Assembly: GCA_001692895.1 (NCBI GenBank)
Contig: KV748188.1
Span: 1,302,001-1,366,000, forward strand
DNA: 64,000 bases
Direction: 5' to 3'
Origin: Cenococcum geophilum 1.58
Lineage: Eukaryota; Ascomycota; Dothideomycetes; Gloniales; Gloniaceae
The position numbers and the translations under genes are program-made. The notes beneath the pieces were generated by a model. That model was not told the DNA's origin and made no database searches. It worked only from the letters and a program-made list of their open reading frames with translations. Below are positions 12,027 to 49,376 of the stretch, in pieces. How positions within the stretch are numbered: position 1 is the first letter of the stretch; every line of letters begins with the position of its first letter.

Positions 12027-12035
12027 TATTATTAC

Positions 12036-14009
12036 ATAGGAAACTACATTAGGAAATAGAGGCTTCCTTTACGGGCAAGGCGCCCTCGCTTATTAACCCC
12101 GGCCAAGCCAAGACTGCCCCTTAACCTCAACTATAAAAGGCCATTTCTCTCGCTACTTTTCCTCTTATCCTCTATCTTTCCTTTCTCCTAACGCTGCGCC
12201 TCCTCCTCTTCTTACTAATAGTCCCTGGCATAGTCACATTAAGGCATTTCTGCCGTCCCTTTAGCGCTAATACGTATACAAGTCTAGCCCGCTTATTACT
12301 TTATTCCCCTATATTTTAGATTAACAATTAATATAGTTAACTACGGCCTTTCTAATGGGCGAGTCTCTATTCTACGGTAATATATAGATAGTCTTAGCCT
12401 CCTCTCCTAATTCCCGCCTCTAGAGCTAATAGCTTTAATTTTTATTAAGCTCTTTTAGCGCCGCCTCTATCCGCTAAGCGCGTCCATATCCTTATAATTC
12501 TATCCTCTCTCTTATACACACCCTCTCTTCTTTCGCCTTCTAGATAGCGCTAGTCCGCAACTGTCCTATAAAAAGGGGGTTAGGGGAATTCCGCAGTTAC
12601 CAGCCGCGTCAGCACTATTATCTTATTTAACTCTACCGCATATCTCCTTCTAAGATAGGAAGGGATAGGCGTGCCGCATCCGCCCCCTTAAGGGCTTAAG
12701 CGAGCTTACGTCGCACTTATTTTAGCTAACCCACGCGCTGTTTTCTTACCTGGGATATACTGTTAGTTAAACAACCCGCTTTAGCATTTACCAATAGCTA
12801 AAGCCACCTATATTACGGTTGGTATGCCTACTAGGCTACCCAGCAGAAAAGTAGCTAGACGTTGCCGATTTAAGTAACTACCCCATATAGGGCTGTGTTA
12901 GGCATTATTCGAACGGATATTATATAAAGTATTACCTAGGTGGCCATATATACCTGCCTAACGGTATAGTTATATTACCACGGATATTTTAGAGACACCG
13001 TTTAATCTACTAGTTTAGGGCTAAGGGGTTATCAGCTCTGCCTAACTGCTTAGCAGCAGAGCGGTAAAAGATTAATAATCCGGCCTTCCAAGCTATAGGG
13101 CTATAGTAGGAACCACCCGGATTAAAATTAGAAGGTTATAGCTTTTAGGCGCATAATAGATCTACGGCACTATGGTACAATTGTAAAGGAATCTTTAACA
13201 CTAGCTAGCTATATTAGGAGGGCGAGCATTATATAGCACCTTATGTAGTACCCTATACAGTCCTTTACCTAGCGCATTTATATATCTGCATATAATTACC
13301 GTATAAGTAGTAGGCGTATCTATTACTAGGTGGTTAGCATTAAAGAACCCTGCCTTCTACCAATAATAATACTACCTCCTTCCGTTATAGATAGCTTATA
13401 ATACGCACGTATAAGTGGGGCTTTATACCCTATTAATACGAGCGGCGCAGAAGATTAGCTGGATTGGTATTATTAGGAAGTAAATAGATATATTAGCACT
13501 ACCCTTTACCAAAGAATAAGGGTAGAGAACTTAAGCCACTAACCTCCTAATAAGGGGCTAGATGCAATAGCTGTGTTAAAGCTAAATATGCTAGCTTAGA
13601 TAGGCGGATACGGTTTAATTGCAATTTACTAAGGGTATTAATTAGGTGCTAGGAATTTAAGCCCTTATAAACCTTTATACCCTATAAACGGTAATTAACC
13701 CTAGTCTATACCGGAGGCGTATATATTAAATACTTTAATTTAATAAAAAACCCGGGCGAGGGGTAAAGGGTAAGGGGTAATAGGCAAGTACTAGCGGCGA
13801 AGGGAGGACTAACGTGTATTTAAAAAGACCTTTAATTCCCCCTTAAAGCTTTTAAAAGCCATAAAATAATAGCAACTCTAATAATAACAACATTAGCACT
13901 ACCTTAGTCTTCATTTTATATTCCTTCTAAAATTTCGCTTAATAAGAACAATTTCTACACTAGTCCCCCTAGAAAATTAACAGCTTTATCTTAGTACTAT
14001 ATAATTACG
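12036..14009. other. 3' terminal region of the Starship-like block, unassigned
   Basis: No protein family recognised. A + strand frame from about 12130 to 13740 contains only TAA/TAG stops, but in RIPed DNA TGA is depleted in every frame, so this is weak evidence of a gene. It is relatively GC-rich near 12070-12130 and 12600-12760. A short GGGGTAA-type repeat lies at 13755-13790. Confidence 0.4.
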
Positions 14010-15920
14010 GCCCCTAAGAAAAGCGCGAGTAGTAAGCCTAAAAGGAGGAGCAGGGGAGTACCTCTTTTCCCCCTAAAAAGTTAAAAAGCATTATAAGCTT
14101 AGGCACTTAATAGCATATTATTCCACCTAGGGCCTTAATTTAGATATTCCGTCTAATAAAGCGCCTATAGACCCTATATATAATTACAAGAAAGCTAATA
14201 ATAAGTATTATAAGGATAATAAGGATAACGAGGACAATAAAGAAGATTTCTATAGGGATAGAAATAACAGTCAAGTCTCTAGAAGAAGTAATTAAGGTAA
14301 TTATCCTAGTAATTACCCCACTACTCTCCCTTTTTCCCCAGCAGTTCCAAATATGTAGTTTTAACAACTAGCAGTAAATTCAATAGTTATTAAAGACGAT
14401 ATAGCCGATCTAGACTTAAAAACTAAGGGCGATAAAGCTAGTAACGCTAATAATAAAGCTAACGAAGCTAATAATCGACTAATACCTCGTGGATTAGGTA
14501 TACGCTTCCCCTTTTAATTTATAATAGCTTATTTAACAATTAGTAGATAATAGGAATAATAGTAGTAGTAAGGGCGATAAAGATAATAAAGAGCTACCTT
14601 TATTAGAAGCGCTAGAAAAGGAGGTACGTATACCTACGCACAATTATACTACACCCTTAACGCTAGACGGCAATTAAACGGATAACCTAGCTAAGGGGCG
14701 TCGCATCGGAACTGCTCCGCAGTTTAGGCAGGAGTTTAGGATATTAGTAGCTACCGGTTAAAAGTCTTTAGGAGCTAAAAAGTTAAAAAAGCGAAGGTCT
14801 AATTAGCTTAATTAGCTAGGTAGCATTAATTATATCTCTAATACTTCCGTTAATAAGAGCAGCGAGAGTGTATAACCTAGGAAGTAATAAAGGTTACCTA
14901 CTTCCTAAAGGACCACGCCTTCCGGCTCTCCCACCCTTAGCCTTAATAACCGTGACGGTATTAAGGAGCGAGCGGTCTCTACTACGCGGCCTACTAGCCC
15001 CTCCCCCTAGCACTATATATCTCCTTATAATACTAAACCACCAAAATATAGAACTAATAATAGTTATAATTATATTCTGGACAATCTTATAAACGGCTTA
15101 ACTAAAGAAAGCAATAATAAGGACGGCGAGAATGTTATGGATAAAGGTAAGGCCGGGAACTACGGTAATAGAAGTAATAATAGTAATAATACAGATAATA
15201 ATAACTCTAGGGACGGTAATAGCAGCAATAGCAATAAGGATAACGAGGCCCGCGGGTATATAGGGCGATAAGGATTACTAACCCCTATTACTAGTTAATT
15301 AAAGGTAAAGCGTGCTACAAAGTATTATTTCCAGTAGTCTTACTATTCCCCTTTAATTTTATCCACGTATGCGTCTAACTAAAGCACTGCGCTTACTAGC
15401 AATTATTATAAGCGGGTTGCATCCCCTATATATAATCGCCTCCGTACCCAAAAACTGCTGCTAAGCGCTGCCTCTAGCTCTGACTCTAATAAAGTAATAC
15501 TAGGAGCCGCCTTAAATGCTAATTTGGAAGAAATTTTAATCTAAGCAGCTTTTAGGCGCTAGAAAGATAGGTTATATACACTAAATATCCTTCCTTAATA
15601 ATTCCCTTTACCTTTTAACCTGGTTAAGCAGCCCTAGAAGCTAAAGCCCTAAGGGCTAAAGTCTAGAATAAAATTTACTAAAGAGGAAGACGCGCTACTT
15701 ACTAACCTAAAAGGGAAATAAAATCTTCTATAAAACTAGATTAAAGATAGCTTTCTAATAAGAAGTCTTAGATCACTATAGGGGCATTACTATTTAAAAT
15801 TAAAGGCTTAGCCTGTTATATAGAAGAAATAGGGGTAGTTTACTAGGTGGAAGAATTAGCAGTAATAGTGCTGTTCTTTTTAGCCTAAAGTTTTATTTTT
15901 AGCTTTGGGTTCTACTTCTA
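14010..15920 (+). pseudogene. Myb/SANT-like DNA-binding protein remnant
   Basis: A basic N-terminus (KKSASSKPKRRSRG at about 14015-14060) is followed by a long low-complexity stretch rich in Asn, Asp, Lys and Ser (14190-15240). Near the C-terminus (15660-15830) is KFTKEEDALLTNLKGK, followed after about 25 residues by HYYLKLKA. That is the fungal Myb/SANT-like pattern of an acidic helix start, regularly spaced aromatic positions and a final HY..KLK helix. Several Trp/Gln/Arg positions are now stops through RIP. The likely original role is a DNA-binding regulator (inference). It lies about 2 kb from the 3' end of the block, opposite to the DUF3435 gene, and on the opposite strand. Exact start unknown. 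Confidence 0.6.
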
Positions 15921-16354
15921 GCTTATTCTATTTATAGCGCATTTCCTATAACGTCCTATAATTTCTAATTTAAGAAAGTTAAGCCCTTATAAACTATATA
16001 GAGCGCCGGCAGGCAGAGGGATTTAGGTATATGTGCTAATAAAGTATTATAAGTGTTTATAAGTAATTTAACCAGATATCTACTGGCTATACTATATATA
16101 ATTATAATGTCGCCTAAAGCCATAAGCTTAATTCAAATAATATAAAAATTTAAAGAACAACCTGCTTTGCCTATAACTTTAATCCATTTATTTAGAATCT
16201 ACAAATTACAGAATTATGCTGTATTATCCGACTAAGTATATTCGGTATAACCTTTAGTACTATTAATAGGTTAAGAGATTAAGTATAGATATTAGGTCTA
16301 TAAATAAGAATAGGCTACAGTTTATATAATCCTTTAAAGTATTATGCAATAAAA

Positions 16355-17225
16355 AGGGTAAGGTATCCGCGTTAACTCGCATTAGCTATATATTAGCGTA
16401 TTTATCCATATAGCTTCCTTTATTAGCTATATAATTTTCGCGGTTAGGTAATAGACCCTTACGTTATATATACGTAATAATACCAACTAAAGCTTAAGGC
16501 TAAGCCCTATTATAGAGTTGGGCATTAACGCCTAAGACTAGCCTTAGCTATCTTAAATTTATATTCTCTTTTCGTGCGCTAGGCGCATCACCATTTCGCG
16601 CACTGCGTAGGGCATAGCCTATTAAGGATGCAACGTTTCTCCTAACTTTAACCTTTAATCTTAACGCTATCCGCTTTACAGCCTACCTTACTATACTTGC
16701 CATAAATCCAAAGTATTTAACTATTAAGGTAAGACAACCCTATTTTATTTATATATATTATATAGCTAGTAATAATATACGCCATAGTTCTTTAGCGCGT
16801 TTCTTAAATAATATATTTATATTTTTTATTATTCTAATCCTAATATAATCCTTATCTCTCCAAAGTCAATAGCTCTCTCCATTAGCCCTTACTTTTATCT
16901 TTAACCTATAACTATTTGGTTACTATTATTACCTAGGCTTAGATAGCATATATTAAGAGCTCTTTAGAATAATAAACGGCGGGGTTCCTATTAATAACAT
17001 CGCAGATAATAATTAGAAACTTAAAAAAAGAGCTTTAAAGCTAGTAGGCAAAATTTAAAATAGTATAAGATATATTTCGCTAAATACTATCTAGTATAAA
17101 GAGCCTATTAAAATAGGTCCGGAAACAACTGGTATATCTCTAAAGTTAGTAGACCTATTAGTTTAAGCAATCTTAGTAAAAATACATAGTAGGGGGGGGA
17201 GGCTATTAGGGTCTTTAGTAATATA
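16355..17225 (+). pseudogene. Unidentified coding remnant
   Basis: One continuous + frame of about 290 codons has stops only of the RIP type and a protein-like composition, for example YLKFIFSFRALGASPFRAL and NGGVPINNIADNN. I do not recognise the family. The frame stays in phase for the whole length, which suggests real former coding sequence rather than chance. It follows the Myb/SANT remnant by about 430 bp, in which I see nothing. It could be the C-terminal part of a larger gene or a separate cargo gene. Confidence 0.4.
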
Positions 17226-18200
17226 ATAAGAAATATAGTTATAGGCTCTAAGGAACCTACTAGCTTTGTTATCCTTATTATAAGGCCTAGTAAGAGCTAT
17301 AGGCTATTTAATAGTCCTACAATGCGCTATTTTTGCCTATAGAAGGTAAGATTAAATTAAATTAACGCTTTACATAATTGAAGAAAGAGTTTGATTTTCG
17401 CGCTTAACCTAAGAGTCGGCTCTAATATAATGTTGATAGATAGTAATAGAACTTTACCCTAAAGGCATACTAGTTTTAAATAGCTGTCCTAATACTACTA
17501 TAGGAAAGCAAGAAGCACTATAAACTTAAGGTTTATAATCTCCCTATAATTCGCTAAGCGAGTTTAAATTGCGGCTATAGATAAAGAGCCTAGTAATATG
17601 TTTTATTTTGGATTAATATTCAGCCTTATTAATATAGGGAGGGAAAATCTATACTACTTCCTTCTTTCTACACTAGATTAATTATAGCCTCGGCTTACAG
17701 AGTCTAACTAGCTAGAGGATTCTATAAATCCTAAACTATATCTTAGCGTAGCTAATTAGTGTTTAGAGAATAAACGTCCAATTAATAAGTATAATTGCTC
17801 TAAGCTAACTCTTGTTTTAAACCCATGTCTTCTAAAAATAGGCGTTTCTAAAAGGGCGCGACTAAAGGATCTAATTTATAGACCTCTTTTACGGGATAAG
17901 CGAGATATTTATATTAAAGATTGTGCAACTTACCATTCCTATAAGGTATATAATGTTCCACCGCTAGTAAGTCTAAGATAGGGCATTTAAAGGTAGCTTA
18001 GTTACTTTTAAGATACTATATAAGCCTAATCCAATCTTAAAAATTTAGAGAGGTTACTCTCTACTTGCTAAGGCTTATAGCGTATAGCAAGACTAACCCC
18101 TAACCGTAGTAATAAAGGATATCGCTAAGGAACGTTTAATAGATATTTAACTTATAAGTTATCTATTTCATCTTTAGAATCCCAGCAGCCGTAATAGCAA
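17226..18200. other. No recognisable feature
   Basis: AT-rich RIPed sequence without a convincing frame or repeat. Confidence 0.4.
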
Positions 18201-18211
18201 GTTTAGCCGCT

Positions 18212-18590
18212 CTACTATCCAGCCGTCCTAAGATCCTAAGATTCGCGATACTCTTTTAGAGTTTCTTACTGCACTTAATAACGCTAAACAATTAGGGCTT
18301 CGCCACGATCTGGCGCTTATCTAGCTTAGCTTTAAGCGAAATAACTATTTCTTAGCTCTGCTTAAGAAGAGTCTTAAGCTCTAAGTTAGTCACTCTATTA
18401 TAGCCATCTTAGTAGGAAAAGGAATTCTTTTCTTTCGCCTATAGTATGATATAAGGCAACTCTATATCTTAAGATTGGCGAAGAGGCAAGGTTAGCGCGC
18501 TAAAATAGATAGATTAAGAGGCGGCTAGATATTACAGCAGTTAAATAATAAGTTAATAGAAAGTTTATAATAGTTATAGGGCAGTTAGTG
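18212..18590 (+). pseudogene. Unidentified coding remnant, C-terminal-like fragment
   Basis: A continuous + frame of about 126 codons reads ...DTLLEFLTALNNAKQLGL, then FLALLKKSLKL and QLYILRLAKRQG. It is helical and charged, ending in a Gln/Leu-rich stretch. Stops are RIP-type only. Family not recognised. Confidence 0.35.
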
Positions 18591-18594
18591 GGTA

Positions 18595-19287
18595 TTTAAA
18601 GAGTAGTTAATAGTAGTTAGGGGGAAGTTAGGGGGAAGTTAGAAGGCAACTAGGGGGTAACTAAGGGTGAGATTACTAAACTTAGTTAGCTAATTACCTT
18701 GAGTTTATTTTATGGGTTATAATATCTTAACCCACTAATACACCGCACTCTGCACATTATTAAACTTATTATATCTTTCTTCTTTCCGTCCCCTAATTGG
18801 GACTTATTCTAACGTAAGCTATATTAATATTTATGCAGTTAATATAAGATTAATTCTTTATTAGTTTAAAGCCTCCGCTAAATAGATGTCGCCCCTTAAA
18901 GAAATAGCAGGCATACTATTACGGATCTATAACGTCCACCTAGCTTATAGGGATTATTTACGCAATCCTTCGCGATACCCCCTATAGCTATATAAATTAT
19001 AGGCTTATCCTATAACAAGAGCCAGTATATACCCTATAGCTTAACTTAGTTAAACTCTCCAACACGTTAGAACGCTATTAAAGATATATAGTCTAGCGCT
19101 ATCTAAGGTTAATTAGGGCAAGTAAGCGGTGCAGTAAATATTTGCGGTATAGTAGTAACTTAGGTCCTATTAATAGGTATAAAAGAAGGCGGATCCTCCA
19201 AAGAAACAATACTATCTATATTTAGCTCCTTACTCTAACCTTACACTTTAGATTAGTATTATATTATTAAAGCTTTATAGAGCAATA
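18595..19287. other. Intergenic stretch with a short repeat
   Basis: At 18605-18675 a GTTAGGGGGAA-like motif is repeated about five times with decay. The rest, leading up to the AAA+ ATPase start, shows no feature. Confidence 0.4.
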
Positions 19288-21790
19288 ATGCCAGTTATAT
19301 CTAAGCCCGTTACGCCAGCGCCTTTACTGCCTTATAATAGTATAAACACCCCCCCCCGGTAGCCTAAGCTAAACGCATCTATATTATAGGCAGTTAGCAT
19401 AGTATCTTATAGTTAAAATGCTTATAGCCGTGTTAAAGATAGTCTAAGCGGCCCAACCTCCTCTACCTCCTCCACCTTCTCTACCTCCCCCTACGAGTTT
19501 AGGGGTTAAAGAGATACCCAAAGTGAGAGGTTCCAAGGTTGAAATTAAGGTGTTAAATAAGATGTATGCTTGCGAAATCCCTAAAATATACTTAGAAATA
19601 CGCTAATATAGCGTTTACTACAGCTAGGATAAATAAAACTGCCAGTATAAGACTATAGAGACTTCGCCGGATACGTTAAGTGAGCGTAATATATATAATC
19701 AGTATATTTATATCCTTTGGAAGAAATTTAGTCTGTCTTTTAGGTGCCTTTAAATATATTAACTTAGATGCTAACTTTAAGCTAGAAAAGGATAAGAAAG
19801 ACTATAGTACGTACCTAGGCATAAATTTAGGAGAAGTAAGAGACGCCTTATAGGTGGTGCTAAGCGGCATATAAGCTATCTCCCTTTGGGAAGATAAGCC
19901 TATAGTAAGTGGACCTTTTTATAGATGTAGCTTATTCTAATTTAACTTCTAGATCCCTATAAACCTTATGTTTAATTTCCTACCCCGGTTAAAAACATAC
20001 TAGGAGAGTCTTTCTCCCGACTTAATTAGCGCTAGGCACCTTTAGGGGTTACTAAGATTCCTTAAAGACCATTTCGCGCCTATAACTAATAGTCTCCTAC
20101 CGCTTCTAGACCATAGCGAAATTAATTTTAATCTTCTTTAGGCCTTATTTAAACCAAATACGTACGTCCTTATAATTTGCGAAGGCTTAGATTAACCAAG
20201 ATGCCTTATATATAATTTAGGCAACTTTAAAACCTTACTTTTTGGCGAAAAGAGCTTCGAACTTAACTATTACTATTTTAGCTATAATAGGAAGGCGTTT
20301 AGCGAGGTAAAAACCACCCTCTCTATTCCGGAATTCCGTTCAACTATAAAAATTACGTCTCTTAAGGTATTTCCGCTAGAGTGTTATAAGAGACAAGCCG
20401 AGATAAAGCAGGATCTTATTAGCAATGGCTAGAAGTTTATATCTTTAAGAGGCATTAACTACTATAAATATAAAGGGATCGCGTTTTTCTAGACTAAAGA
20501 TAGCCTATTAAGATTTTCTACAAGCGGCCGCATTATAGTAGACGCGATAGCATTTTATTATTAGAATCCTAACTATAGTAAGCAGCTAATCGCTATAGAT
20601 GCGTACGGAATAAGCGTAATTAATTAAGGGACTAATTAGTAAGGCAACGTAAAGAATTAGGGTTTAGTTCCTAAGGAGATAGAAGACAATAAGTACCTAA
20701 TCTGTCCACTAATAGCCCTAGCCTTTAGTTTGGCAGATAAAAAATAGGGTTAAGCTTTTTATACTCTTTTTCTAGAGCTAGCGAATTATATATACTAATA
20801 CAAGCACTAATAGGTAAATTTGCCGTCGCTAATATTAAGGATATTAAATAGAATGCCTTAGCATTTAAGTCACTCGCAATTAAGGAGGATAAGAAAATGG
20901 TGCTTTAAGGACTTATAAAGAGCTACTAGTCTAGGTCCGGGAAATTAAAGTTTAATAATATAATTAAAGGGAAAGGGAAAGGCCTAGTTTTCTTACTACA
21001 GTAAGTTTTTTAGTAAGGCATTAGCTATTTTAAAGGCTAACCGTTTTAGTGGCCTACCTAAGGTAAGAAAGATATTAATAGCTAAAGCACTTACCGAATC
21101 TTAGAGGAGACCCCTCTATATAGTTTGTTCCCCTTTATAAGTATATTTATATACCAGTCTAACTATAAAAAGGCTTATATGGGAGACCTTAATATAGATC
21201 TAGCCTATTTAAAATAAAACCTAGCTCTAATAGTTAAAAACGTTTACCGCTAAAGCGCTGTCCTTCTTTTAGATAAGGCCGATGTCTTTCTTATAGAAAG
21301 AACTTTAAATAATATCCAACGTAATAGCCTAGTATCCATCTTCCTGCGATAAATGGAGTATTTCTAAGGTATTATATTTCTTACAATAAATAGGATTACT
21401 GTATTTAATGCAGCTATATAGAGCAGAATATATCTTATACTTAGATATAACAAGCTAAAGAGACTAGCAAGAAAGTAGGTATAGAAGACCTTCCTAAAGT
21501 AAGCTAATGCTGCTGCTAATATCTCTAAAAAGGATATAAAGCGGCTTTTAGACTATTAATTAAACAAAAGATAGGTAAGGTAATGTTTAAGAGAGAGTTT
21601 AGAGGCTAGTGCTAATATACTGTATTAGATTAAGAATACTATATAAATTAGTTACAGCTTGGCTAAAAGTAAGGGGGAGAAACTTATATATAAGTATTTA
21701 GGCAAGGCTCTTATGTTAAACTAAGATTTTAAAAGTAATTTTAAAGACGCTGGATTAGTTAAGAATTTAAACTTATATATATAGATTCGC
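19288..21790 (+). pseudogene. AAA+ ATPase of the fungal DUF7025-AAA type, with one recognisable intron
   Basis: Start chosen at ATG 19288 (MPVISKPVTPAP). The N-terminal half carries the conserved block before the ATPase: LRFLKDHFAP, then LFKPNTYVLIICEG (19980-20200), SLKVFPLECYK and SGRIIVDAIAFYYQNPNY (20370-20575). The ATPase follows. Walker A reads GLPKVRKI where GPPGVGKT is usual, and is split by an apparent 49-bp intron (21001-21049, GTAAGT...GCTAAC...TAG) that restores His-Gly across the junction. Walker B is LLDKADVFL (about 21265), then NSLVSIFLR. The ending resembles family C-termini. Its original chaperone- or remodelling-type role is unknown. The damage is C-to-T/G-to-A. It is a host-type gene, not a transposon gene, and reads opposite to the block's captain-like gene. 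Confidence 0.75.
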
Positions 21791-21949
21791 TTATATATAT
21801 AGAGCATTAAATACGTCTTATAGATCTTATAGCTGGTGGCATTATTGCTTATTACTTTCTTAAAATTACTTTCTTACTCTTGTGGCAATAAGACCTATGC
21901 GGTAGGTAGTGGCGTAGGTAAATTACTTATAGATCCAGGAATAGGAGAA

Positions 21950-22740
21950 TAGAAGCTATAGGGTATTAGTTTCTATAGGGGAGTAAAAGATATAAGCGTT
22001 AGTTCCTATAAGGAATTAAAAGCTATAAGGCAATAGAGAAAGCGGGTATTAACCCCTATAGAGAACCGTAAACTATAGGAGATTAGTTTCTATAGGGGAG
22101 TAGAAGAAATCGCTATTAGTTCTTATAGGGGAGTAAAAGCTATACGGGAGCAGGAGCTATAGGGTATAGTTTTTATAGGGCAGTAGAAGATACGGTTACT
22201 ATATACAGGAACGGAATTTATAGGGGATTTATTCCGTAGGGGAGTAGAAGATATAGCTAATAGTATCTATAGATCTAGGAATAGAGAACGGAAGCCGTAG
22301 GGTATTGGTTCCCGTACGGGAGAGGAAAACGTGGCTATTAGCCCCTGTAGGGGAGCAAAAGCCATACAGAAATATAAGCCGTAGGGGATTAGTTCCTATA
22401 GGGCGGTAAAACACATAGGCATTAGCACCCGTAGGGGATTTATTAGCGTAGGGGATTTATTGCTATAGGGGATTTATTGCCGCAGGGGAGTAAATCCTAT
22501 AGGGGAGTAGATCCCGTAGGGGATTTATTATCGTAGGGGAGTAGATCCTATAGGGGAGTAGATCCTATAGGGGATTTATTAGAGTAGGGGATCGGATCCT
22601 ATAGGGGATTATTAGGAGTAGGGGATTAGTTCCTATAGGGCAGTAAAATATATAGGCATTGGCTCCCGTAGGGGATTTATTTAAGTAGGGGACTTATTTA
22701 AGTAGGGGATTGGCTAGAGTAAGGGATTAATTCTCTAACG
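21950..22740. repeat. Minisatellite of 18-20 bp units (TATAGGGGAGTAGATCC / GTAGGGGATTTATT)
   Basis: About 40 degenerate copies of two interleaved variants, both centred on TAGGGGA, lie directly after the AAA+ remnant. Copies become more regular between 22390 and 22620. Short open frames here are repeat translations, not genes. Confidence 0.9.
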
Positions 22741-22874
22741 GCCTCTATTTAGACAGTATAAGGCGGCTTCTAATAGGCTAGAGAGTAGGTTACGTGTTTT
22801 GTGGAAATTTAAAGCCTATATAGAATAGTAGGGCGCGGGGGCCTAGTAGAAGATTGGGTTATCCGCTTTCCTAG

Positions 22875-23153
22875 GTTTATTTAGCCTAGGTAACTCGCCC
22901 TACACTATTTTATATGCGTTTTAACTAAGGCTACTGCCTAGCCTTAGCCGCCTAAATCCCCATAAAACTTTAACCTGTGCGGTAGAAGAATACAGGAAAA
23001 TAAAATATTATTCTTTTCCGGGTTTATTTAGCCTAGGTAACTCGCCCTATGCTGTTTTATATACATTTTAACTAAGGCTACTACCTAGCCTTAGCCGCCT
23101 AAATCTCCGCAAAACTTTACTTATACGGTGGAAGAGCAATAAAATATTATTCT
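22875..23153. repeat. Tandem duplication (two units of about 140 and 132 bp)
   Basis: 22875-23014 and 23022-23153 share GTTTATTTAGCCTAGGTAAC, the GCCTTAGCCGCCTAAATC segment and the end AAAATATTATTCT. The right copy abuts the stop of the FunK1-type gene, so the 3' flank of that gene was duplicated. Confidence 0.9.
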
Positions 23154-23155
23154 AT

Positions 23156-26205: not shown

Positions 26206-26210
26206 TAACT

Positions 26211-35219: not shown

Positions 35220-35740
35220 TTAGATTACCCTACTTACACAATTACTCTACTTGCATGATCACTCTACTTATATAATTGCCTAGCTCGCACGATTACCTAG
35301 TTTATACAATCACCCAGCTTATACAATTACCTAGCTCGCATAATTACCTAGTTCGCATAATCGCCTAGCTCGTATAATTACCTAGCTTGTAGGATTGCCT
35401 AGCTCCTATAAGCACTATACTCGCATAGTTACCTAGCTCGCACGATTACCTAGCTTATGGAATTGGCCAGCTCCTATAAGCATCCAGCTCGCACAATTAC
35501 CTAGTTCGCACGATTGCCTAGCTCGCACGATTACCTAGCTCGTAGAATCGGCCAGCCCCTATAAGCATCTAGCTCGCACGATTAAAGCCGAAGTTATTAA
35601 ACCTATTAATACCCTATTTACACGCTAGGAATTAATTAGAGGGCGCTAGGTTAGACTACTCTACTTGCACGATTACCTAGCTTATAGGATCCCCTAGCTT
35701 TTACGAGCCCCTAGCTTCCATAACTTCCTAGCTTATAGGA
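35220..35740. repeat. 17-bp minisatellite (ATTACCTAGCTCGCACG)
   Basis: About 25 degenerate copies with variants CTATAAGCA and TTATACAATC, in two blocks interrupted at 35590-35660 by unrelated sequence that resembles the segment just before the array (GCGCTAGGTTAGA near 35212 and 35645). Confidence 0.9.
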
Positions 35741-35744
35741 CTAA

Positions 35745-38555: not shown

Positions 38556-38558
38556 AAG

Positions 38559-38632
38559 GGCCTTGCGCTAATTATATCGCTTTAATTAAGTATATAATAC
38601 TTAATTAAAGCGATATAATTAGTATAAGGCTC
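38559..38632. repeat. Hairpin with about 34-bp arms
   Basis: CTAATTATATCGCTTTAATT and its reverse complement face each other across a 5-6 bp centre. About 30 of 34 arm positions pair; mismatches are at the outer ends. It could be a small foldback element or a remnant of inverted insertion. Confidence 0.75.
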
Positions 38633-38924
38633 TTTTAAGTTTCGGGGGCGCTAGCGACCTATTAGGGAATTAAGAGCGGAGGGGAACTATACTTGACTAC
38701 TCTTTTATCTTAACACAAATTATATAACTTATAACCCACTATTATAGACTTTAGCATTGCAGTAGCCTTAGATCTTATCCGTAATGCTTCTAATAAGTAG
38801 CTTTAACCTTATCTCCCTAATATTATATATACTATTTAAAGGCTCTAAAAGCTTCCTATTAACACCTTTTAATATTTACTACCTCTCTTAGAGAATGAAC
38901 GCGGCCACTATAATTCGCTCTACG

Positions 38925-39170
38925 CTCCTCTAAGGAGTAAGGATGTCTAGCCTTCTTTAGGGAATTAGGATGTTATTTAGCCTTTTTTAAGAAATAAGGA
39001 TAATGCCGTCTAGTCTTCTCTAAGGAGTGTTTAGCCTTCTCTAGGGAATAAGGATATTATTAAGCCTTCTCTAGAGAGTAAGGATGTTTAGCCTTTTCCA
39101 GGGAATAAGAATAATATTGTTTAGCCTTCTCTAGGGAGTGTCTAGCCTTCTTTAGGGAATAAGGTTGCTT
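38925..39170. repeat. Minisatellite TAGCCTTCTCTAGGGAATAA
   Basis: About ten copies of a TCTAGCCTTCTYTAGGGAR unit with alternative spacers (AAGGATGTT, AAGGATAATG, GTG), directly upstream of the 27-residue-repeat gene remnant. Confidence 0.9.
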
Positions 39171-39211
39171 TTCTACCTCCCCTTTTACCTAGATGTGCGA
39201 ACCTACTTAAC

Positions 39212-40591
39212 ATATTATCGGCAAACCTCTTTAAGATTAAGATATTCGTTAATATATCTATAGGGAAAGATCTAAAGGCTATTATTAGTGAACTAAAGTG
39301 GTTAAACGAATATCCCCTTATTAAGGATCTTATTACTACTAATAGCGATTTATTAAATAACGCTATTTTTTAAAAACTTCTTAGCTAATAGACGCTTGCG
39401 GATTCTTTTAAGAAATGGTAACTAAAGTCTATAGGTGCGTTAAGGATTAAAAGTTTAGTTAAAAGTCGAGCCGCTTCCATAAAGGGAGTTAGCTATATTA
39501 TATTATTTGCAAAAAGTATAGGATGTTATAATGTTACTAAAGCGGCTTTAGCTATTAAATATAGAATTAAGCTTTATATTATATAAAGGCTTAAAGGGGT
39601 AGGGCTATTAGTTCTCTTAGCCTTTACCTATAATACCTACCGGAGATTAAATTTACCTAACATTAACGATTTTCTTATGGCTTTACGGCACTGGTCTTAT
39701 TTTATAATATTTAAAATTGCGTAAAAATATTTAGTTTAGATAGGATAGTGTTAAGAGCTTTATTCTAGTTAGATGCTTTCTCTTAAACCAATATATCTTA
39801 GTACTACTAACCCGCCCTAGCCAAGCTCGAAAAAGCGAATTTCCTCCCCTTATAAACGTCTTTGTGTAGAAGTTGCTAAACCTAGAGATCTTATATTAGT
39901 GTATAATTACCAATACGCAGATCTAATAATATCGCACCCTCCTTAGCTACTAATAACGGCCTTAATAAATAGCATGCAGATATATAAGAGTAGTTATGCT
40001 TCTAAATAGCAGTATCTCTAATTTATTATAGGCCATAGAACATCTTCTCTACGATTTATTAAACAATATCCTTAAGCCTCTAAGCCGGCGGGCGAATTCC
40101 TTACACTACGCCTTAGTCAAGAACGCTTATTATAAGATTTCCCCACCCCTTTTAATACCCGCGGTAACCTTATATAAAGATATCTAAATATAAATAGCAT
40201 AGTATATTTAAATGGAAACCCTAGCGGCTCTAGTTCTATAGATGTTAGTAGTAATAGTAAATAAATAAGCTATAATAAGGCGCAATGGGTATACGGAGAC
40301 CAAATCGACAGTAATACGCCACTAGCAATTAGAAATAGCGAATAAATAAGCTATAATAAGGCGCAATAAATATACGGAGACCAAATTGACGGTAATACAC
40401 TACTAGGAATTAGTAATAGTAAATAGATAGGCTATAATAAGGCGCAATGGGTATATAGAGACTAAATTAGTAGTAATACGCTACTGGCGATTAGCGACAG
40501 CGAATAGATAAGCTATAGCTCCGCGCAATGGGTATATAATAAGTCCCTTAATAGTGCGGTTGCTATAAGTTCTACTTATAAATATTAGTAA
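39212..40591 (+). pseudogene. Unknown protein remnant with C-terminal 27-residue repeats
   Basis: A continuous + frame of about 460 codons, stops RIP-type, ending at a TAG at 40586-40588. The N-terminal half is helical and contains IISELKWLNEYPLIKDLI, SRAASIKGVSYIILFAKSIG and FTYNTYRRLNLPNINDFLMA. The C-terminal quarter is a tandem repeat of 81 bp (27 codons) whose unit reads about ISYNKAQWVYGDQIDSNT. The repeat period is an exact multiple of three and stays in frame, strong evidence that this was coding. I do not recognise the family. The start is not certain; no clear in-frame ATG was seen. It is a cargo gene of the giant element. Confidence 0.55.
40240..40545 (+). repeat. 81-bp coding tandem repeat (about 3.5 copies)
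   Basis: The segment AAGCTATAATAAGGCGCAAT recurs at 81-bp spacing (40267, 40348, about 40429), with a degraded last copy near 40510. It lies within the gene remnant 39212-40591. Confidence 0.9.
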
Positions 40592-40649
40592 ATTTCTTCT
40601 AAAACTCTTATATTATTATATACCCTAATTTTAGGTTTTTAATGTGGTA

Positions 40650-41290
40650 TAATAATGGTTTAACAATATCCCTTATTAAGTAGAACCAGTAGTTTAAGCT
40701 TAGCTAATAATTGGCACCATAATTATTACACTAACGCTACCTTTACTCCTATTCTATTCTACCCATTATAAACTAGCCTAGTAATAGCCCTACCTGCTCT
40801 CTAAATATGGGATAGTATAACTAAGCGGGACCTAGGAGTCCTAATAAGGGCTAAAAGCTAATATATACACTACTAAATCGTTTAGATATTGCATTAAAAT
40901 ACGTCGTCCTATAAAATAGACTGTTAGGCCTATATATAAAGAGTTTATATTAACTGCTCTAACTCCTAACTTTAGTAGTATTTCTAATATCTTTAACTTA
41001 AATTCCTTATTTGCGTTAGCCGCTAGAGTTACTATACCGAAGTAAACTATATTAAATATACTATTTTCGCAAGCTTATACGCTTTATTACTTTCTATAGT
41101 GTCCGTTAAGGCAATAGTAGGTGCAGTTTTAGTTAGCGTAGTCTTCTAAATCTTCTATATTACCTCCTCTAGGCTAGATTATACGAGGTCTGCGTACGAC
41201 TTATTAATTACGGATACTATATATATCCTATTCCGGTAATCCTTTATTAAAGTTTTATGCTTACTTATTTTTTGCGTTACTGTATCTAAT
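40650..41290 (-). pseudogene. Possible ankyrin-like coding remnant
   Basis: The - strand contains VTLAANANKEFKLKILEI and LLKLGVRAVNINSLYIGL, then ILMQYLNDLVVYILA, reminiscent of paired helices of ankyrin repeats (LLxLGxxxNxxxxxGxTxxx). Only one to two units are discernible. This could be chance similarity in AT-rich sequence. Confidence 0.25.
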
Positions 41291-41299
41291 TTTACGAGC

Positions 41300-44200
41300 T
41301 TGCTGCAAGTAAAATTATTTAAGTGGTAGGGCAGTTTAGAGGGGTAGGCTTATTGGCCTATTTATATTTCGCGCGCTAGGTATACTAATTCGCTAACGTG
41401 CATAGATATTAAAATGCTTAGCATTTTAAATAAGCCTTAAATATTTAACACCCTAACGCTTAGGCTTTACTATTTTTATTAGTAAGGATTTAGTGGTAAT
41501 ATTTTTAATGCCTTAAATATACCGCTGAAACAAGATTAATATATATAATGGCCGCTGTGCGGGCCGCTATATATATTAAACGCTCGGCATCTTATCCCGC
41601 GTAGATGTATTTACAGTGCCCTTTCTACCCTTTAATATATCTAGCGGCCTAGACTTCTTACCTAGCTGCAATAAGGCCTACGAATGGCATATAGCACGCA
41701 CTATAACCTCTTAACAATCTTTATTAATTACTGCCCCTACTCCTATCTACGATTATATAGCTATGCTTTTAGAACTAATAAGTACTATATTTAACGCTTT
41801 TTTCTTTCTAAGTTAGATTGTTTAAGCCCTTAAAAGCAAGGATAAAGTATACCTTAATCTACTACCCACTAAAATGTTTACTAACTAACCCAGACCTTTT
41901 ATATTATACTACTACCGAGAAAATACCTATCCTTATTAAATATGCCTAGAATAAAAGAGTATTATATGCTCTTTAAAACGTCTGAAACTAGCTATAATAA
42001 AATAGCCGGAGTCTTTCCTAACGCTTAGGGAAAAGAACAGTTTAAATTTATTAAAGTAGGTTATAAATCTAGGTAATTTCTAATAAATCTTAAGCTTTAT
42101 AGGTTTTAAAATAGATTGGTTTCCGCTATAATCTACCCACTAAACCTAAGTACGCTCAAGTCCTGATACATTTTCGCATTAGTAGGATTGAAAAGCAGTT
42201 ATATGCTTTGTTAGAAGCAGTAGGGCTAATATAAGGCGGGGAGTAAATTGTGGAAGATATAAACGCGGTAAAATTAAAGGTTAAATAGTTAAAGTTGCTA
42301 GAGGGGTCTTCTAGCGACTTAGAAAAGAGCAACGTAGAGGAGGGTTTGCGTGCTCTAGGCTTTAAGATATAGTTTAACCGTATAGAATATCCGTAGTATA
42401 TATTACATATCTGGGAAAACCTACTATTCGGCTACTAGATTATTAATTCTTATTTTAAATAGTATTAATTTCTCCTATTTTACTTTCTTCTTACTCCCTA
42501 TATTTTTAGAATTAAAGTCTACTATACCCCCGCCTTGTTAGTGCTGCTAGCTATCTGCTATACTTTAGCCCATTACTAATACCACGGTTAGAAAACCTTC
42601 TTTAGGGAATTTATTTACTAAGGGAATTATTATAAAGTTCTTATATTTTTGGGTGCAGTTAAGAAGATAAATAGTAAAAAAGAAATCCTATAATAGATAG
42701 AGCGTAAGATATAGGATGATAGAAATTATAATATAAGGTATAGTATAGAAGAGGACCGGGATAAAGATAGGGATGCGTATAAGGACGTATATAGGGAGGA
42801 CATAGTCGCCGGGATTAAGGCTTTAGGGATTAATTTAAAGAAGAATATGTCTCTTCGCTAGTAACTATTCCTTCTATAAATAGTATAGCGAAGGCTATTA
42901 TATGACGTGTTCGCATTTCTACGTATAATTATAGCGTACCAATTTACACCTCCCCCTATACTACGCAATTATACTTATAGCCGGCCGAGCTAGGCTTCTC
43001 TACTTATAATAGGTTAGCCTCCTATATTCTATAAGTATACTTAGTCTTACCCTTTACTAATCTTTTATTACCTATAGCAAGGCTAAAATAGGCGTCTTCT
43101 CGTGTTTATGCCGTCTAGTAAGTCGCATTTAGGCCTGCCTTTGTATATTCTATGCCGTTTACAGCCTAACTTAAATCTATATACTTCCTTATTACTCTAG
43201 TAAAAACTGCTACGTAATTTAACCTTACTAACACGTATGTACTGCCTCTGCTAGGGTTTTACTAATTAATATATAAATAGGCCTTTAAGACCTCTATAGA
43301 CCTCTAAAGGCCTCTAATAACCTCTAAAGACTAGTAATAACTTACCTACTAAGGCAAGTAGTATGTAACCCGCCCCTTTTATATCTTTAGTAATCTAATC
43401 GCTACTCTTAGGTACCTATTATCGTGATAGATACATCTAATAGAAGCTAAAAGTTAGCCTATTAGGTTCTAAAGTTAGGAGAAGAGATTTCTAAGGAGGA
43501 TAAAAAATGAAATATTACCTTTATAGGATGGGAAGAAGGCGATTTACGTAAAGCAAAAGTAAGTAATTACCTATATTATAAGTAGCAGGTCCCTAATATC
43601 TTAAAGATTTATAAGATTATCGGCATTCTATATACTTAACCCGATATTCGCTAGGCTGTAGGTCCGATATATAATATAATTATTTAAATAACTTTGGTTG
43701 TGCTATATTACCGTAGTAGCAGATTAGTTATAGCGGAAATTAATTATAATAGAACATTAATGAGGTCTAATTGCTTTTCCGGTAATGTATAGTTTATAGA
43801 AGGTAGAAAGGAAGCTTTAAAATAATTGGATAAAGAGGTAAAGGAACTTAATAATGCTAACTAGGCTACTGCGCCTCCCTTTTTGGTTAGATTGGCGCAC
43901 TTTACTGCCCTAATACTTGTGATAGCTTTGGTACTTCCGTATAGGGAATAGTTAAGTTTATATAGAGGAACTATGTTGCTTAAATTGCTTAATTTTGTTC
44001 GAAGAATATAAGATCTCGTGCGGCTTATATAATAGTCTAGTAATTTGCTATTATTCTATAACTAAGCCCAAAGCCCTTCGCGCCTTATACCTTTATATTT
44101 GCCCATGCTTATAACCCCTACTAAAATTAAACCCCCTCTTTACGCTCTCTTTTCCCGGCCTTGCTAAAATACCTAGTGTAAATGTACTTCTTTTGTAACA

Positions 44201-44745
44201 AAGATAGAAAGGCTATATAAAAGTGGTCTTTTAAAACCTAATGCTTAATTTTTGTAAACTATATAAGTATAGCTGATTTTGCGAGCTAGGTGATCGTACG
44301 GGTTATATTAGCATATAGTTAAGAAAAAAGTAGAATAGTATAATTAGTAGGCCGGTACGCAGGAATATAATACTATTTAACTTTGCTTAATGTGGCTTAG
44401 AGGAGTGTAAAGCCTTAACCTAAGCTATGGGAACACGTCCTCTAACTAAGCCTCTATTATATAACCACTAACTACTTTTAGGCGCTACGGCCGCCGCATA
44501 CCCCGCCACTTACCCTTCCTAGAACTTTAGAAGTTATACTAGTTCTTAGTTAAGCGACTGACGTTTAAAGCTCTAACTAACTAGCTAAATCTGTTGCAGA
44601 TTAGATAAAGCTAATAACGACTTCTTAATATATATATAGAGGCTCTAGAGCCACGTTTAATAAAGTAAAGTTCTTATTCTTAATCGTCCTGTTGAATACT
44701 AAATCACTCCCTTAAATATTGCTTAAGATATAGTTAAAACTAGAG
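41300..44745. other. 3.4 kb with unassigned coding-like remnants
   Basis: On +, about 41940-42130 reads FPNAQGKEQFKFIKVGYKSR; 42690-42850 is a charged Asp/Glu/Arg stretch (RYSIEEDRDKDRDAYKDVYR); 43790-43960 reads EALKQLDKEVKELNNAN. None is recognised, and I cannot join them into a gene. They may be one large or several cargo genes. Confidence 0.3.
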
Positions 44746-44749
44746 AAAC

Positions 44750-45751
44750 ATGCCATCTAAGAGTGTTCTGTTCGGCTTAGTATAGCTTATAGATAGCGAG
44801 AAATATAGCGACTTAAAACTTATATGCTAGGGGCTAGAGTTTAAAGTCTATAAAGCGATTATATGCACCTAATCTCCTATACTTGCAGCTGCCTATAATG
44901 GAGGCTTTTAGGTAAAAGCTAACTAAATATCTAGTAGAATTAACCCTAACTAACTAACTAATGGGTAGGAGGCGGCGACTAATATTATAAATATTAACAA
45001 GTTTAATTCCGGCACCGTTAAAAGGATGATCTAATTTATGTATAAGAGGGACTATAAGAATGGTAAGGAGGAGTAAGGATCTAATATTAATAACGCTGAT
45101 GCCTTATCGCCATCTAAACTAGACAATAGCGGTAGCGATAATAAAGATACAATAATACGGCCAATGACGGCCTATATTATACTTTATTACGTCTATATTA
45201 ATATAATTGCCGATTACTATAATATACTATAGCTAAAAGAGCTTGCGAATATAAAAATCTAATATATTCTAGGAACTAGCTAGTCCGCAGACGGGTTTCC
45301 TAATGTTATTAAGGATGTCTTTAGCCTAATAGGTAACTTAGCATTATATAATATAATTACCTTAATAGTGGCCAAGTATATTAAAGAGCTTATTAAACTT
45401 AGGGACTTTGTGGAGCTAGACGTTATAAGCGATTTTGCTATCGGCATTGTATAGACAGCGATTACCGCATCTAAGGATATGGAGGAAAATTTTATGCTAA
45501 AACTTTAAGCTGTCTAATCTTAGCTATAATAAATAGAATCACTACTTTAATCCGCTGAGGTAAGGTATGTCGCGGCTGAGCGTAAAAGCAAAAACATTAA
45601 TAACTGTCTTAATACCCTCTGCACGACTAGGACCTGTTATAATATTAGTTATAAAGCTAAGTTTACATATTATATTGAGGATAGTAGTTATCTATCTAAC
45701 CCTAATTACCCTTATATACTTTGTTGTAAAAGGTACGAGCGTTATATATAA
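44750..45751 (+). pseudogene. BTB/POZ domain protein remnant with one recognisable intron
   Basis: ATG at 44750 (MPSKSVLFGL). The BTB fold is clear: KYSDLKLIC, then FKVYKAIICT*SPILAAA, then VKRMI*FMYKRDYK (each * is a RIP stop). An apparent 57-bp intron (44912-44968, GTAAAAG...CTAACTAAC...TAG) separates ...NGGF from EAATNIINI. After BTB follow a helical region (HYVYINIIADYYN-type, then LKELANIKI) and a Cys-rich tail ending at TAA 45749-45751. Length about 310 residues, normal for small fungal BTB proteins. BTB proteins dimerise and often recruit Cul3 ligase, but which role this one had is unknown. Cargo gene, next to but divergent from the DUF3435 gene. Internal stops make it non-functional. 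Confidence 0.8.
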
Positions 45752-45899
45752 GTAAAGATATATAGCTTAGGAGATTGGCTTAGGTAGGAAGTTATTATAT
45801 CGTTTAGGTTAATCTAAGAAATTTAAATGTATATCTTGTCCATAGTCGATCCGTTAGATATTGTGTAGCAACTATATTATCTATTTTCCATCAGCCTCC

Positions 45900-46035
45900 C
45901 CTTACCTTACCCCTTACCCCTTACCCCTTACCCCTTACCCCTTACCCCTTACCCCTTACCCCTTACCCCTTACCCTACCCTTTATCTTATCCTTTACCTC
46001 ACCCTCACCTTTACCCTTACCTATTACCCCTTGCC
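45900..46035. repeat. (CCCCTTAC)n microsatellite
   Basis: About nine exact 8-bp units at 45904-45976, then a decayed Cys/Pro-type pyrimidine tract. It is not the canonical fungal telomere repeat (CCCTAA). It lies between the convergent BTB and DUF3435 genes. Confidence 0.9.
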
Positions 46036-46274
46036 CCCTAGACGAATTATAAAATCCTAGTTATTATATCTATTTTACTAAATACTAAAACAGGATTAGA
46101 TAATAATAGACTAAAATAAAATAAAAAGTGGCAAAGAATAATAAGATAAGCGAGAAATAATTAGGAAAAGGTCCCATGTATATAAAACGCATAGTTCTAA
46201 ATTTACTAGTTATATGCCTTTCTATTAGTACTAGAGGGTTAGTATAGGATTTTTATATAAGCAAGGCAACTTAC

Positions 46275-48797
46275 CTAGCGGTGCCTCTTAATTAGATGCT
46301 ATACGCTATACATAAGGGCTACGTGATTTTTAAAATGCTTAAGTCCTTTAATCCACTCTAAACAATAAGGATGCTTATAGCGGAACCTCTGCCTAAACAC
46401 TCCTTCTGTAACGTGATTATTGAGATACTTTTATAGTATATCCTTCTTCGCAAATAGGCGGGTCTGCCTTAGTGTTAAGAGTTAGTTATTACTAATATAG
46501 ATAAGGTAAATAAGATTAGTAAACGTTATAGGATATAGTAGCTATATTATCTTAATACCCTCTTCCTTAATTAGGACCGCGCTCCACGTCTTATCCGGGT
46601 TTTCTTAGAAAGGCGAGTCTAAGCTAATATATTCTTTTTACCGCTTTGCCTGTTAATAAGTGCTAGTATTAGTGTCACTTACACCTCTTTTTACGCCTAT
46701 TACACTTTGGTCTACTTTAGACCTAAGTTAAAGTTTAATAGCCTTGCTTGGGATCCTATTCTGCTAGCTCTCTTATTAATTATAATACTTAACGAGATTA
46801 CGGATAAACTTTATACGGAGTTTTATAGCGTGCCCTTCTTTAAGCTCGTTTAGCGGCTAAGACAGCAGTTTAGTAATAGTAGTACGTTTGCGAAATTTAT
46901 ACTATATAGCTAAACGGGTGGGAATGTCCGTCCTAACGCTACTACTAAGCTATCTTTTAATATTGTAATCGTTAATGGCGTTATAAAAATTAAGAATAAC
47001 CTAGTCCTCTTTTTATTTGCGTAGGACGTTTATAATACTATAAAGTTTATATCTAGCTTTGTTGTAACGGTTATATAGTTTCGTTCCCTTCGCGGCGTTA
47101 ATAGGGTAATATCCTCGGCTCCTAATCTTTTGCTTATATTGCTCTCGTTTCTTATAAAGCTATAAAATATTAGGGTATTAATTAAGTTTTAACTGGAATT
47201 TAAGCTTCTGCTCGTTAGTTAGACCTATAAAGGCCTACTTATCCCTTAAAATCCCCATCCGTGCGGTATATTAGATAAGGTTGTCCTATAATAAAGTCCT
47301 AAAGTAGATTAACTAGAAATCGCGCTTAATTAAATTAGGTAAATAAAACCGTTAGTAGGTATTACCGTAATAACCTATTATCTAATTTCGCTCTTCTAGA
47401 GTAAGGGTGGCTAAAAAGGTTAGTTAATAGATATACTTATATTAAATTAGATACTTACTATTTAATTTCCTTCCGGACGCTTATTGCAGCTAGTAAAGTT
47501 TAAGCGATTATTTAAACCCGGCCACTCGGCCTAACCATACGTAGTAATTACGGCATTTCTGGTAAGGGAATGCTTTAGTATTTAACACTCCCCTATAACC
47601 AGCCATTATCTCAATATCTTAAAAGATAGGTCGTTCCTCTATCTGCTTCTTAAACTTTACTTTAAAACTCTCTTTATTTACTAGGATTTTAAGTTTAAAA
47701 ATCTCTTCTGGTAAAGTGTAATGGCGTTAAAATGCATTATTTGCAATAGTAAGGCTTATAAGATGGGATAGAATATAAAAAGCTAGGATACTTTTAAGAC
47801 GGAAAATGAACCTCTTACTATAGGTCTATTAGCGCCATTCGCGCCGTCTTTAATCGGCGTCGCTATATACTATCTGCCTATGCCTCTAGAATTCTTAATA
47901 TATATAAGACTTATAAGGGCGACAGTTGTAGTTTAATTAAAGTTTTTTGCATTATAAACTTTTAGGATTGTAATATGTTTATATAAAAGCGCTTTATTAG
48001 AGCCTCTTACGCTTAAACTTTTAATAAGAGCTTGGGGTCTTATTACCGTGGTACTAGAGAGAAGGAGGATTACTCCCATTTACACTCGAAAACGACTATA
48101 GTAAGGCTTCGCGTCTATTGTCTAATAGGCATCAATAATTATATATAAGTCTTGCATATATATTATATGCTTTTCTTTCTCCGACGTATCTAGCTTATAT
48201 ATTAGCGTTAAGTAGGTTGGAATCCACTATAATAAATTAGCCAAGTTTTTTTTTTTAAAGGTTGAAGATTGCCCTATATCTTATATATTAAGTTCTGCGC
48301 TATTGTTTATACTGTGGCCTGCTATATCTATAAATTTGCATAGAATTTGTTTCTAGTACGCCTTAATCGCGCTTTCCTTCTTAATTCGAGAATTCTTTAC
48401 GCGCCATTTAAGGTATATTTTAAACGTGTCGGCTATATACTAACAAAGGGCCTTAGTTGGGTTAGACTTAACTTTTAGGTAAAACCTAAATATAAATCGT
48501 TAGTATTATAAGGTAAATCTTGGTCTAAATATAAACGAACTTTTTTTAATTCCAGAACTTATACTTAATAAGAGAAGTAGACTAGGGCTTCTGTTTTAAC
48601 TTCGCTCTTCCTTAACCCTTATAATACGTAATCCTCTACTATAAATATTCCCCCTTGGACTTGGCGTTTTCCCTAGCTCTAGAGTTAGAGCTTAAATCTA
48701 AGTCCGAAGCTAGCTTAGAATAAGACGGCTTGCCTAGTTTAAGGTTTAAGCTAAAGGCTAAATCTATATTTTGCCATTTCTTACTTTAAGAGGGCAT
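46275..48797 (-). pseudogene. DUF3435 tyrosine recombinase with C-terminal C2H2 finger (Starship captain-like)
   Basis: ATG at 48797 opens a frame with LAFSLNLKLGKPS; a frameshift or lost intron near 48490 leads into the core: TKAL, FKIYLKWRVKNSRIKKESAI (core-binding part), KLDTSEKEKHIIYMQDLYII, VILLLSSTTVIRPQALI (catalytic-domain start with the Arg context), then EERNQIIGYYG-like and NTY.RFYLPNLIKRDFQ (C-terminal Tyr context), MGILRDKQAFIGL. A second block, INAAKGTKLYNRYNK and IKRQLSSSVRTDIPTRL, precedes a C2H2-like end (HVTEGVFRQRF, then KHPYCLEWIKGLKHFKNHVA). This is the DUF3435/captain layout. Such enzymes cut and insert Starships. It lies 579 bp from the right edge and reads into the block. 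RIP stops make it dead. Confidence 0.8.
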
Positions 48798-49376
48798 GGT
48801 GGTTAAACGCGTGGTGTTTTAGTGCTTTAGTAGCTACCAGTTACCTACACGCAGAAGCTAGCTTAAGAGTGACTGCTATTAATAGGAATGCTGAAAAAGG
48901 CTTTACGGGAGACAGGCGTTTTTAAGAGCGGGATAGGGCTAAAAAACCCCGTGAGTAGAAACCTAGAAATTGAGTATTAGAAGTGAACGATATAATAGCA
49001 GGGGAAAATATATATATAGCTACTGTGGGAAAAGGGTTAAAGGAGCGTAGTATAGAAGGGAGGTTTCGTTAGGTAAGGGTAGTGCTTTTAGCAGAGGATA
49101 AGGATAAAGGTAGAAACTGGATTAGGTAGGCGGCGGACGTCTATGGCTTCTTAAATAGCTATTAAGGGACGTTTAGGGAGCTTTGAGAGGTGTGTTGTAG
49201 AGCTACACGCGCGCTTCTAGGTTTAGTGGGTAAGGGAGACCCTACCGCCCTTAGCACGCTTAGTACGTTGCAAAAGCGGCGATAGATATGGGTCTAAGCG
49301 AGGAGAAACAGCCTCCTAAAACGGGGGGTAGGAACCTCCAAATCCGGCTGCGTCTTCCCCAATAACAAGATTCTAG
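48798..49376 (-). promoter_or_regulatory. 5' terminal leader of the Starship-like block
   Basis: 579 bp between element edge and captain ATG. On the - strand it begins CTAGAATCTTGTTATTGGGG and has a GC-rich CpG-containing first 200 bp (GAAGACGCAGCCGG, GCGCGCG) unlike the AT-rich interior. It should hold the captain promoter and recombinase binding sites (inference); no TATA box or site was identified. Confidence 0.45.

Follow-up and report, generated by a model that had tools for sequence, protein, structure and literature searches.

We analyzed a 64-kb stretch of DNA, hereafter the window, from the genome of the ascomycete Cenococcum geophilum 1.58 (assembly GCA_001692895.1, contig KV748188.1, positions 1,302,001 to 1,366,000), in which a previous reading made from the letters alone (the sequence-only reading) had placed a 37-kb fossil Starship-like transposon inside a Gypsy retrotransposon. 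We find that positions 12029-49376 are a single insertion splitting one Gypsy copy. At the insertion, repeat 8556-8709 pairs with 11885-12038 and repeat 8402-8573 with 49377-49548, and a Gypsy paralogue at 8402-8709 on the opposite strand, which is without the block, reads ...AACTATATAATTAGTAATAGTAATACC... where the junctions read ...AACTAGTTATA before the element and TAGTAATAATAATACC... after it. Comparing the intact paralogue with the split copy, both within the window of this one genome, therefore points to a single insertion flanked by a short direct repeat. The edges first proposed, 12027 and 49376, agree to within a few bases with the repeat pairs and with the shared ends of other copies described below, and the argument from the uninterrupted paralogue stands on both repeat pairing and direct read-through. 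One host copy is indeed split; its Gypsy name comes from weak Tf2-1-like SH3 matches, one on each strand of 8400-12026 and below the family cut-off (1.2e-4 and 4.2e-5).

The right end of the element carries a broken recombinase gene, captain 1, a frame of 841 codons on the minus strand. The DUF3435 profile search that the sequence-only reading had proposed returns a match at E = 1.1e-24 (Pfam), and the ATG at 48797 lies 579 bp from the edge at 49376, so that this DUF3435 tyrosine recombinase gene is the terminal gene on one side and reads inward, as had been described. With captain 1 as query we find a sole relative, an intact Zopfia rhizophila protein (53% amino acid identity over 512 amino acids). 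The Zopfia protein as query finds 50 proteins including itself, among them proteins of Cladophialophora, Pseudogymnoascus, Verticillium and Geoglossum, and judging by the names we take these relatives to be mostly from Dothideomycetes. In an alignment of 37 captain relatives Y435 is invariant and R404, R405 and H426 are nearly so; conserved arginine, histidine and tyrosine are the pattern expected in tyrosine recombinases. Genome-wide there are 346 candidate places for DUF3435 genes, and among the 165 matches in the best 100 of the 346, a few have no stop or one stop in the matched stretch. A search with the MCM2 gene of this genome gives one match at 99%, and the nearest named match is from Lepidopterella palustris (91%).

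We next read the edges of 20 left and 20 right ends besides those of the window, and find the same ends in all 21 of each. The core AGTTAT precedes the element at 21 of 21 left edges; the next base is T in 20 of them and A in the window. The right cores are AGTTAT (13), AGTAAT (6), AGGAAT (1) and AGGTAT (1), which makes short direct repeats of AGTTAT against AGTWAT-like cores at the edges. Both edges were read in 11 copies; the right core differs from AGTTAT in four of these, all four keep AGTTAT on the left, and the left core therefore looks element-borne and the right core target-borne, although four informative cases are few. Sixteen of the 20 other right edges end at 49383-49395 and three continue to 49774, because these copies occupy the same Gypsy site; in C39 (copies are given by our own labels) the alignment reaches 49440, though its own edge resembles the others. 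The sequence-only reading held that copies extending past these edges would tell against it, and the reading survived this test on the 20 left and 20 right edges of other copies. The Gypsy context fixes the boundaries as was claimed, and it is not the sole evidence for them, given that the copies share both ends. The same Gypsy position is the right flank in four of 21 copies (the window, C5, C85 and C96), and flanks are also shared by C97 and C41b on both sides, C22b and C7b on the left, and C13b and C87 on the right, as expected of a site preference. The ends also carry imperfect inverted repeats about 40 bp long (p = 0.0002 and 0.0034 in two chosen edge pairs; 0.099 in the window).

The element is not isolated. 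Searching the 177-Mb host genome, with the window included in all copy counts, we find captain 1 at a minimum of 40 places (40 scored of 65 candidates), the others being 87-91% identical. The left edge occurs at a minimum of 39 places (40 matches from 251 candidates), the others being 83-91% identical; 39 of the 40 matches start inside the first 14 bases of a query beginning at 12027, and the remaining one belongs to an interrupted copy, of which it is the second piece (C101, counted twice). In 29 of the 40, captain and left edge are paired on one contig, oriented as expected and within 120 kb; the spans are 27.1-111.1 kb, and the longest probably hold nested insertions. The same element with the same ends is thus found at different sites. 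A rival account, in which repeat-rich DNA was copied passively by segmental duplication rather than by transposition, would explain why a few copies share flanks (C97 and C41b on both sides) and is nevertheless highly improbable: outer flanks differ at most edges read while the ends stay constant, C97 measures 45.7 kb against 28.3 kb for C41b, and an uninterrupted target copy lies beside the window element.

All of these sequences bear the marks of repeat-induced point mutation (RIP). The RIP indices are extreme throughout (TA/AT 1.45-2.21; (CA+TG)/(AC+GT) 0.23-0.76), and no stop-to-stop frame of 200 codons is found anywhere in the 64-kb window. An end-to-end alignment of C89 and C38, two of the shortest copies, gives 90.5% identity, with 2374 transitions and 19 transversions over 27,081 sites; the family has therefore spread recently, with RIP following afterwards. 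The window block is a complete, RIP-mutated and dead copy of an element multiplied dozens of times. The reading as a fossil, Starship-like, whose terminal gene is the captain, is upheld, now as one of at least 40 captain places.

The body of the element also lies next to other captains. The C11 element matches the window body to 46201, 74 bp beyond the captain-1 stop, and then turns into unrelated DNA with captain 2 (DUF3435, 4.9e-78), whose family occupies 40 places or more (of 151 candidates); no tblastn match between captain 1 and captain 2 is found at 1e-3. In 21 of 22 captain-2 loci homology to the window stops at 46201, and in the remaining one at 46214; it covers 1.4-1.7 kb of the fetched DNA in 11 loci and about 0.6 kb in one. 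At 20 of the 22 the fetched pieces reach only about 10-60 bp beyond the junction; in the longer C11 and C29 pieces homology does not resume past it. In a third type, found on C6, the body runs to 46065 and is followed by an insert of at least 1.2 kb and then by captain 3 (DUF3435, 3.6e-27), which is 36-38% identical to captain 1 and 52-64% identical to another Zopfia protein. C47 and C7 have the same post-body sequence as this third type (91%). The genome is repeat-rich, and assembly errors between similar repeats might be suspected at these junctions; this is very unlikely, however, given that the captain-2 junction is seen at 22 loci and the captain-3-type post-body sequence at three (C6, C47 and C7).

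Five loci were checked for captain type: C6:1382950 carries captain 1, C6:2588250, C47 and C7 are of the third type, and C4 matches none of the types. The third-type loci are L104, L109 and L110 (C6:2586300-2593300), L107 (C47) and L108 (C7). At C4:3454750-3455950 (L106), the expected captain position beside the module at 35.8-44.3 kb, the sequence matches none of the three captain types and perhaps represents an insertion or a fourth type. The right flanks of captain-2 elements (13 read) begin with AGTWA in 12 and AGTAT in one, near the captain-1 sites and not the same. Two of these 13 right ends (C52:608560-608760, L099; C3:4543462-4543662, L103, C3b) abut a captain-2-type left end, giving tandem elements with one shared direct repeat. 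Such tandem captain-2 elements would offer a route for recombination.

To compare bodies we counted transversions alone, because RIP produces transitions, over the body up to 46065 in seven captain-1 copies, the one captain-3 copy and 11 captain-2 bodies; an eighth captain-1 copy, L007, with an alignment of just 134 bp, was left out of trees and counts. The seven captain-1 bodies differ from one another by 0-3 transversions in 1205-1290 sites, and the captain-3 body differs from them by 0-2, with none against the window in 1256 sites. Two captain-2 bodies, C11 and C9, are 0-3 transversions and a third, C81, 2-4 transversions from the captain-1 bodies, and a tree of the body to 46065 does not separate captain-1, captain-3, C11, C9 and C81 bodies. 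A nesting of captain-1 bodies within captain-2 diversity was considered and dropped, as the separating sites (46153-46184) lie outside the body, which is unresolved to 46065. All five captain-2 copies listed differ from the window at three sites, 46153, 46155 and 46184. Since captain-type sites start at 46153, the last 50 bp travel with the captain, which places the exchange with C11-like elements before 46153. Captain and body are also uncoupled among captain-2 elements: in 10 of them the two distances are uncorrelated (45 pairs, rho 0.05, Mantel p 0.37). For instance, C11 and C20 have captains 0.1% apart and bodies 1.3% apart, while C11 and C81 have captains 1.5% apart and bodies 0.2% apart. 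Simple divergence of one captain in place over an unchanged body would account for three DUF3435 genes in the same position. This explanation is in effect refuted by the numbers: no transversion in 1256 body sites stands against a captain identity of 36-38% for captain 3, captain 3 resembles another Zopfia protein at 52-64%, and captain 1 has no match in captain 2 at the threshold given.

Based on this data, we propose with good confidence that the window holds a Starship-type, RIP-killed, modular element, and that recombination between captain and body has joined near-identical bodies to three captain lineages. In this proposal a DUF3435 captain would have moved the segment by site-specific recombination into short AT-rich, AGTWAT-like targets, an enzymatic step suggested by the protein family and the motifs; the edges, the direct repeat and the repeated entry into the same position of other repeats are observed. 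The element multiplied to at least 40 places and was mutated by RIP afterwards. It consists of two modules, the captain plus its terminus and the body. The association of near-identical bodies with three captains is likewise observed, and recombination near the captain 3' end (46066-46153), plausibly by crossing-over or gene conversion, would have produced it. In the sequences compared, the captain with its terminus can be separated from the body, a modularity suggesting that elements of this kind are able to exchange the recombinase responsible for their movement.

Several observations weigh against this proposal. Eight of the 11 captain-2 bodies are clearly farther from the captain-1 bodies (7-23 transversions), nine of the 22 captain-2 loci have no more than about 100-280 bp in common with the window (for C29, 0.4 kb was fetched), and the sequence link between captain 3 and the body comes from a single copy. 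At its left end, too, C11 departs from the window (73-75% over 12047-12186 and 13445-15343), a difference that itself fits body exchange. The predicted structure of captain 1 is poor, with a mean predicted local distance difference test score of 69.9 and values below 50 at residues 405-467, where H426 and Y435 lie; its best PDB matches are to Cre (2.8e-6), with low template modeling scores (0.4 or less). The usual auxiliary Starship genes are absent from Pfam scans: no match to DUF3723, FRE, PLP or NLR is found at 0.01 in 12029-27792, in 33362-46274 or in the 10.3 kb specific to C89. These auxiliary genes are common in Starships and not required. Lastly, gene conversion could homogenize bodies without any movement of captains.

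This last point leads to the alternative that we regard as having nearly an even chance, namely that captains never move and that gene conversion or double crossing-over exchanges or homogenizes interiors between fixed outer shells. In its favor, both ends of C11 differ from those of the window while the interior is close from 19174 on, cargo modules are also shuffled between copies, and cargo swapping between Starships has been described (PMC11623301). Against it, the captain side switches in the same short zone every time, and captain and body are uncorrelated even within the captain-2 family. Neither point is exclusive to one account, and the alternative is the same modularity viewed from the other side, with bodies passing between shells in place of captains passing onto bodies. 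More tentatively, and with somewhat less expectation of being right, we suggest an extension of captain-body recombination: where RIP kills repeated captains, bodies may persist by re-captaining, the cassette of captain plus terminus being replaced at a fixed zone just downstream of the captain. One body would then have been driven by three or more recombinase lineages whose targets differ slightly (captain 1, AGTTATAA-like; captain 2, AGTWA-like).

The element resembles Starships, which occur in Pezizomycotina and have a DUF3435 (PF11917) captain, in its inward-reading first gene, short direct repeats, large cargo segment, precise shared ends and insertion into repeats. It is unlike them in its 40 or more places with RIP overall, its fairly short 27-kb core, its three recognizable cargo domains and its one body with three captain lineages. 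Cryptons likewise have a tyrosine recombinase and short direct repeats, and are small and cargo-free; the element here, in contrast, has a 27-kb core with other gene remnants and a DUF3435 captain. Hill et al. 2025 (PMC12134995) describe, with reference to Gluck-Thaler and Vogan 2024, near-identical Starships with different captains, one pair of them in one genome; these pairs were without predicted flanking repeats, leaving boundaries uncertain, and captain swapping is posed there as an open question. Our case is like those pairs in joining similar elements to different captains and unlike them in that many copies fix the captain-1 ends and that the exchange zone can be placed to about 100 bp. 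Urquhart et al. 2024 (PMC11623301) report ssf cargo swapped between Starships whose captains are unrelated (about 16% amino acid identity). The same cargo lies under unrelated captains in both cases; what moved there was a gene cluster with some further content, whereas here the body extends to the captain 3' end. In the open-licence literature on Starship haplotypes, copy number and swapping, we found no base-resolved captain swap; for C. geophilum, looked up together with Starships, one paper came up, on genome size. For Aspergillus fumigatus, single copies are the rule according to PMC12153272, which adds that some other species hold several copies and that RIP may limit copy number elsewhere; against that single-copy rule, the window family is a high-copy, RIP-killed expansion. 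Starships are classified by their captains, and if captain and body separate often, captain phylogeny will fail to track the element. With dozens of copies, captain swapping becomes testable in one genome.

Table 1. Positions of the element, its parts and its insertion site in the window.
Feature	Position	Strand	Remarks
Whole element (E1)	12029-49376	-	Captain end right, far end left; edges from copy-shared ends and the interrupted Gypsy copy
Captain 1, broken DUF3435 tyrosine recombinase gene	46275-48797	-	Pfam match at 46938-47789
Body next to captain	44301-46065		Common to captain-2 and captain-3 elements
Exchange zone	46066-46201		Homology stops at 46065 (captain-3 copy) and 46201 (captain-2 loci); captain-type transversions at 46153, 46155, 46184
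Left direct-repeat core AGTTAT	12022-12027		Constant across all 21 left edges
Right direct-repeat core AGTAAT	49378-49383		Equals Gypsy target
Gypsy copy, left part	11612-12026	-	Weak Tf2-1-like SH3 match at 11612-11767
Gypsy copy, right part	49377-49774	-	Same site occupied in C5, C85, C96
Cargo module	15906-22267		Stands in place of 10.3 kb of C89; of 34 scored candidates, the window and 9 more have it full or nearly full
Cargo module	35783-44300		Lacking in copies of the C89/C38 type; 13 of 19 scored candidates, the window among them, have it full or nearly full
Later nested repeat	27793-33361		14-bp flanking duplication; absent from C89
DUF7025 domain remnant	20097-20387	+	Pfam 1.5e-17
Fungal protein kinase (FunK1) remnant	23465-24691	-	Pfam PF17667 Pkinase_fungal 1.5e-70
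BTB domain remnant	44792-45097	+	Pfam 2.7e-4

Besides the captain, the 27.1-kb core and its modules form a large segment with other genes, of which FunK1, DUF7025 and BTB remnants are recognizable. The sequence-only reading had named four host-type genes; Pfam bears out the BTB gene and the FunK1-type kinase, and for AAA+ and Myb/SANT a six-frame scan of 12029-27792 and 33362-46274 gives no match at E<=0.01 (27793-33361 and 46275-49376 lay outside the scan). The window segments common to C89 are 12022-15905, 22268-27792, 33362-35782 and 44301-49395. Two modules (Table 1) are variably present across the scored copies and therefore define cargo haplotypes. For the first of them, 20 further candidates start near the module middle (query 3180-3298), and the C89-specific 10.3 kb that it replaces matches no Pfam family. 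Within the second, 37178-38325 matches elsewhere in C89 at 68.5%. A piece of the nested repeat, 29000-31000, has 1410 candidate places, of which 40 were scored. The block is one element as first read; 37 kb is not its ancestral length, however, because of the nested repeat and the mosaic cargo (the shortest paired copies span 27.1 kb).

Several tandem repeats lie in and around the element. Two arrays in the body (22334-22739 and 35207-35580) are built of 17-bp units with many TAGGGGATT-like motifs. To the left of the element, 28-bp tandem repeats occur in two related copies (2835-3176 and 7594-7823), and beyond its right flank, at 50498-50984, a 35-bp tandem repeat with scattered N lies within a GC-rich island (49% GC).

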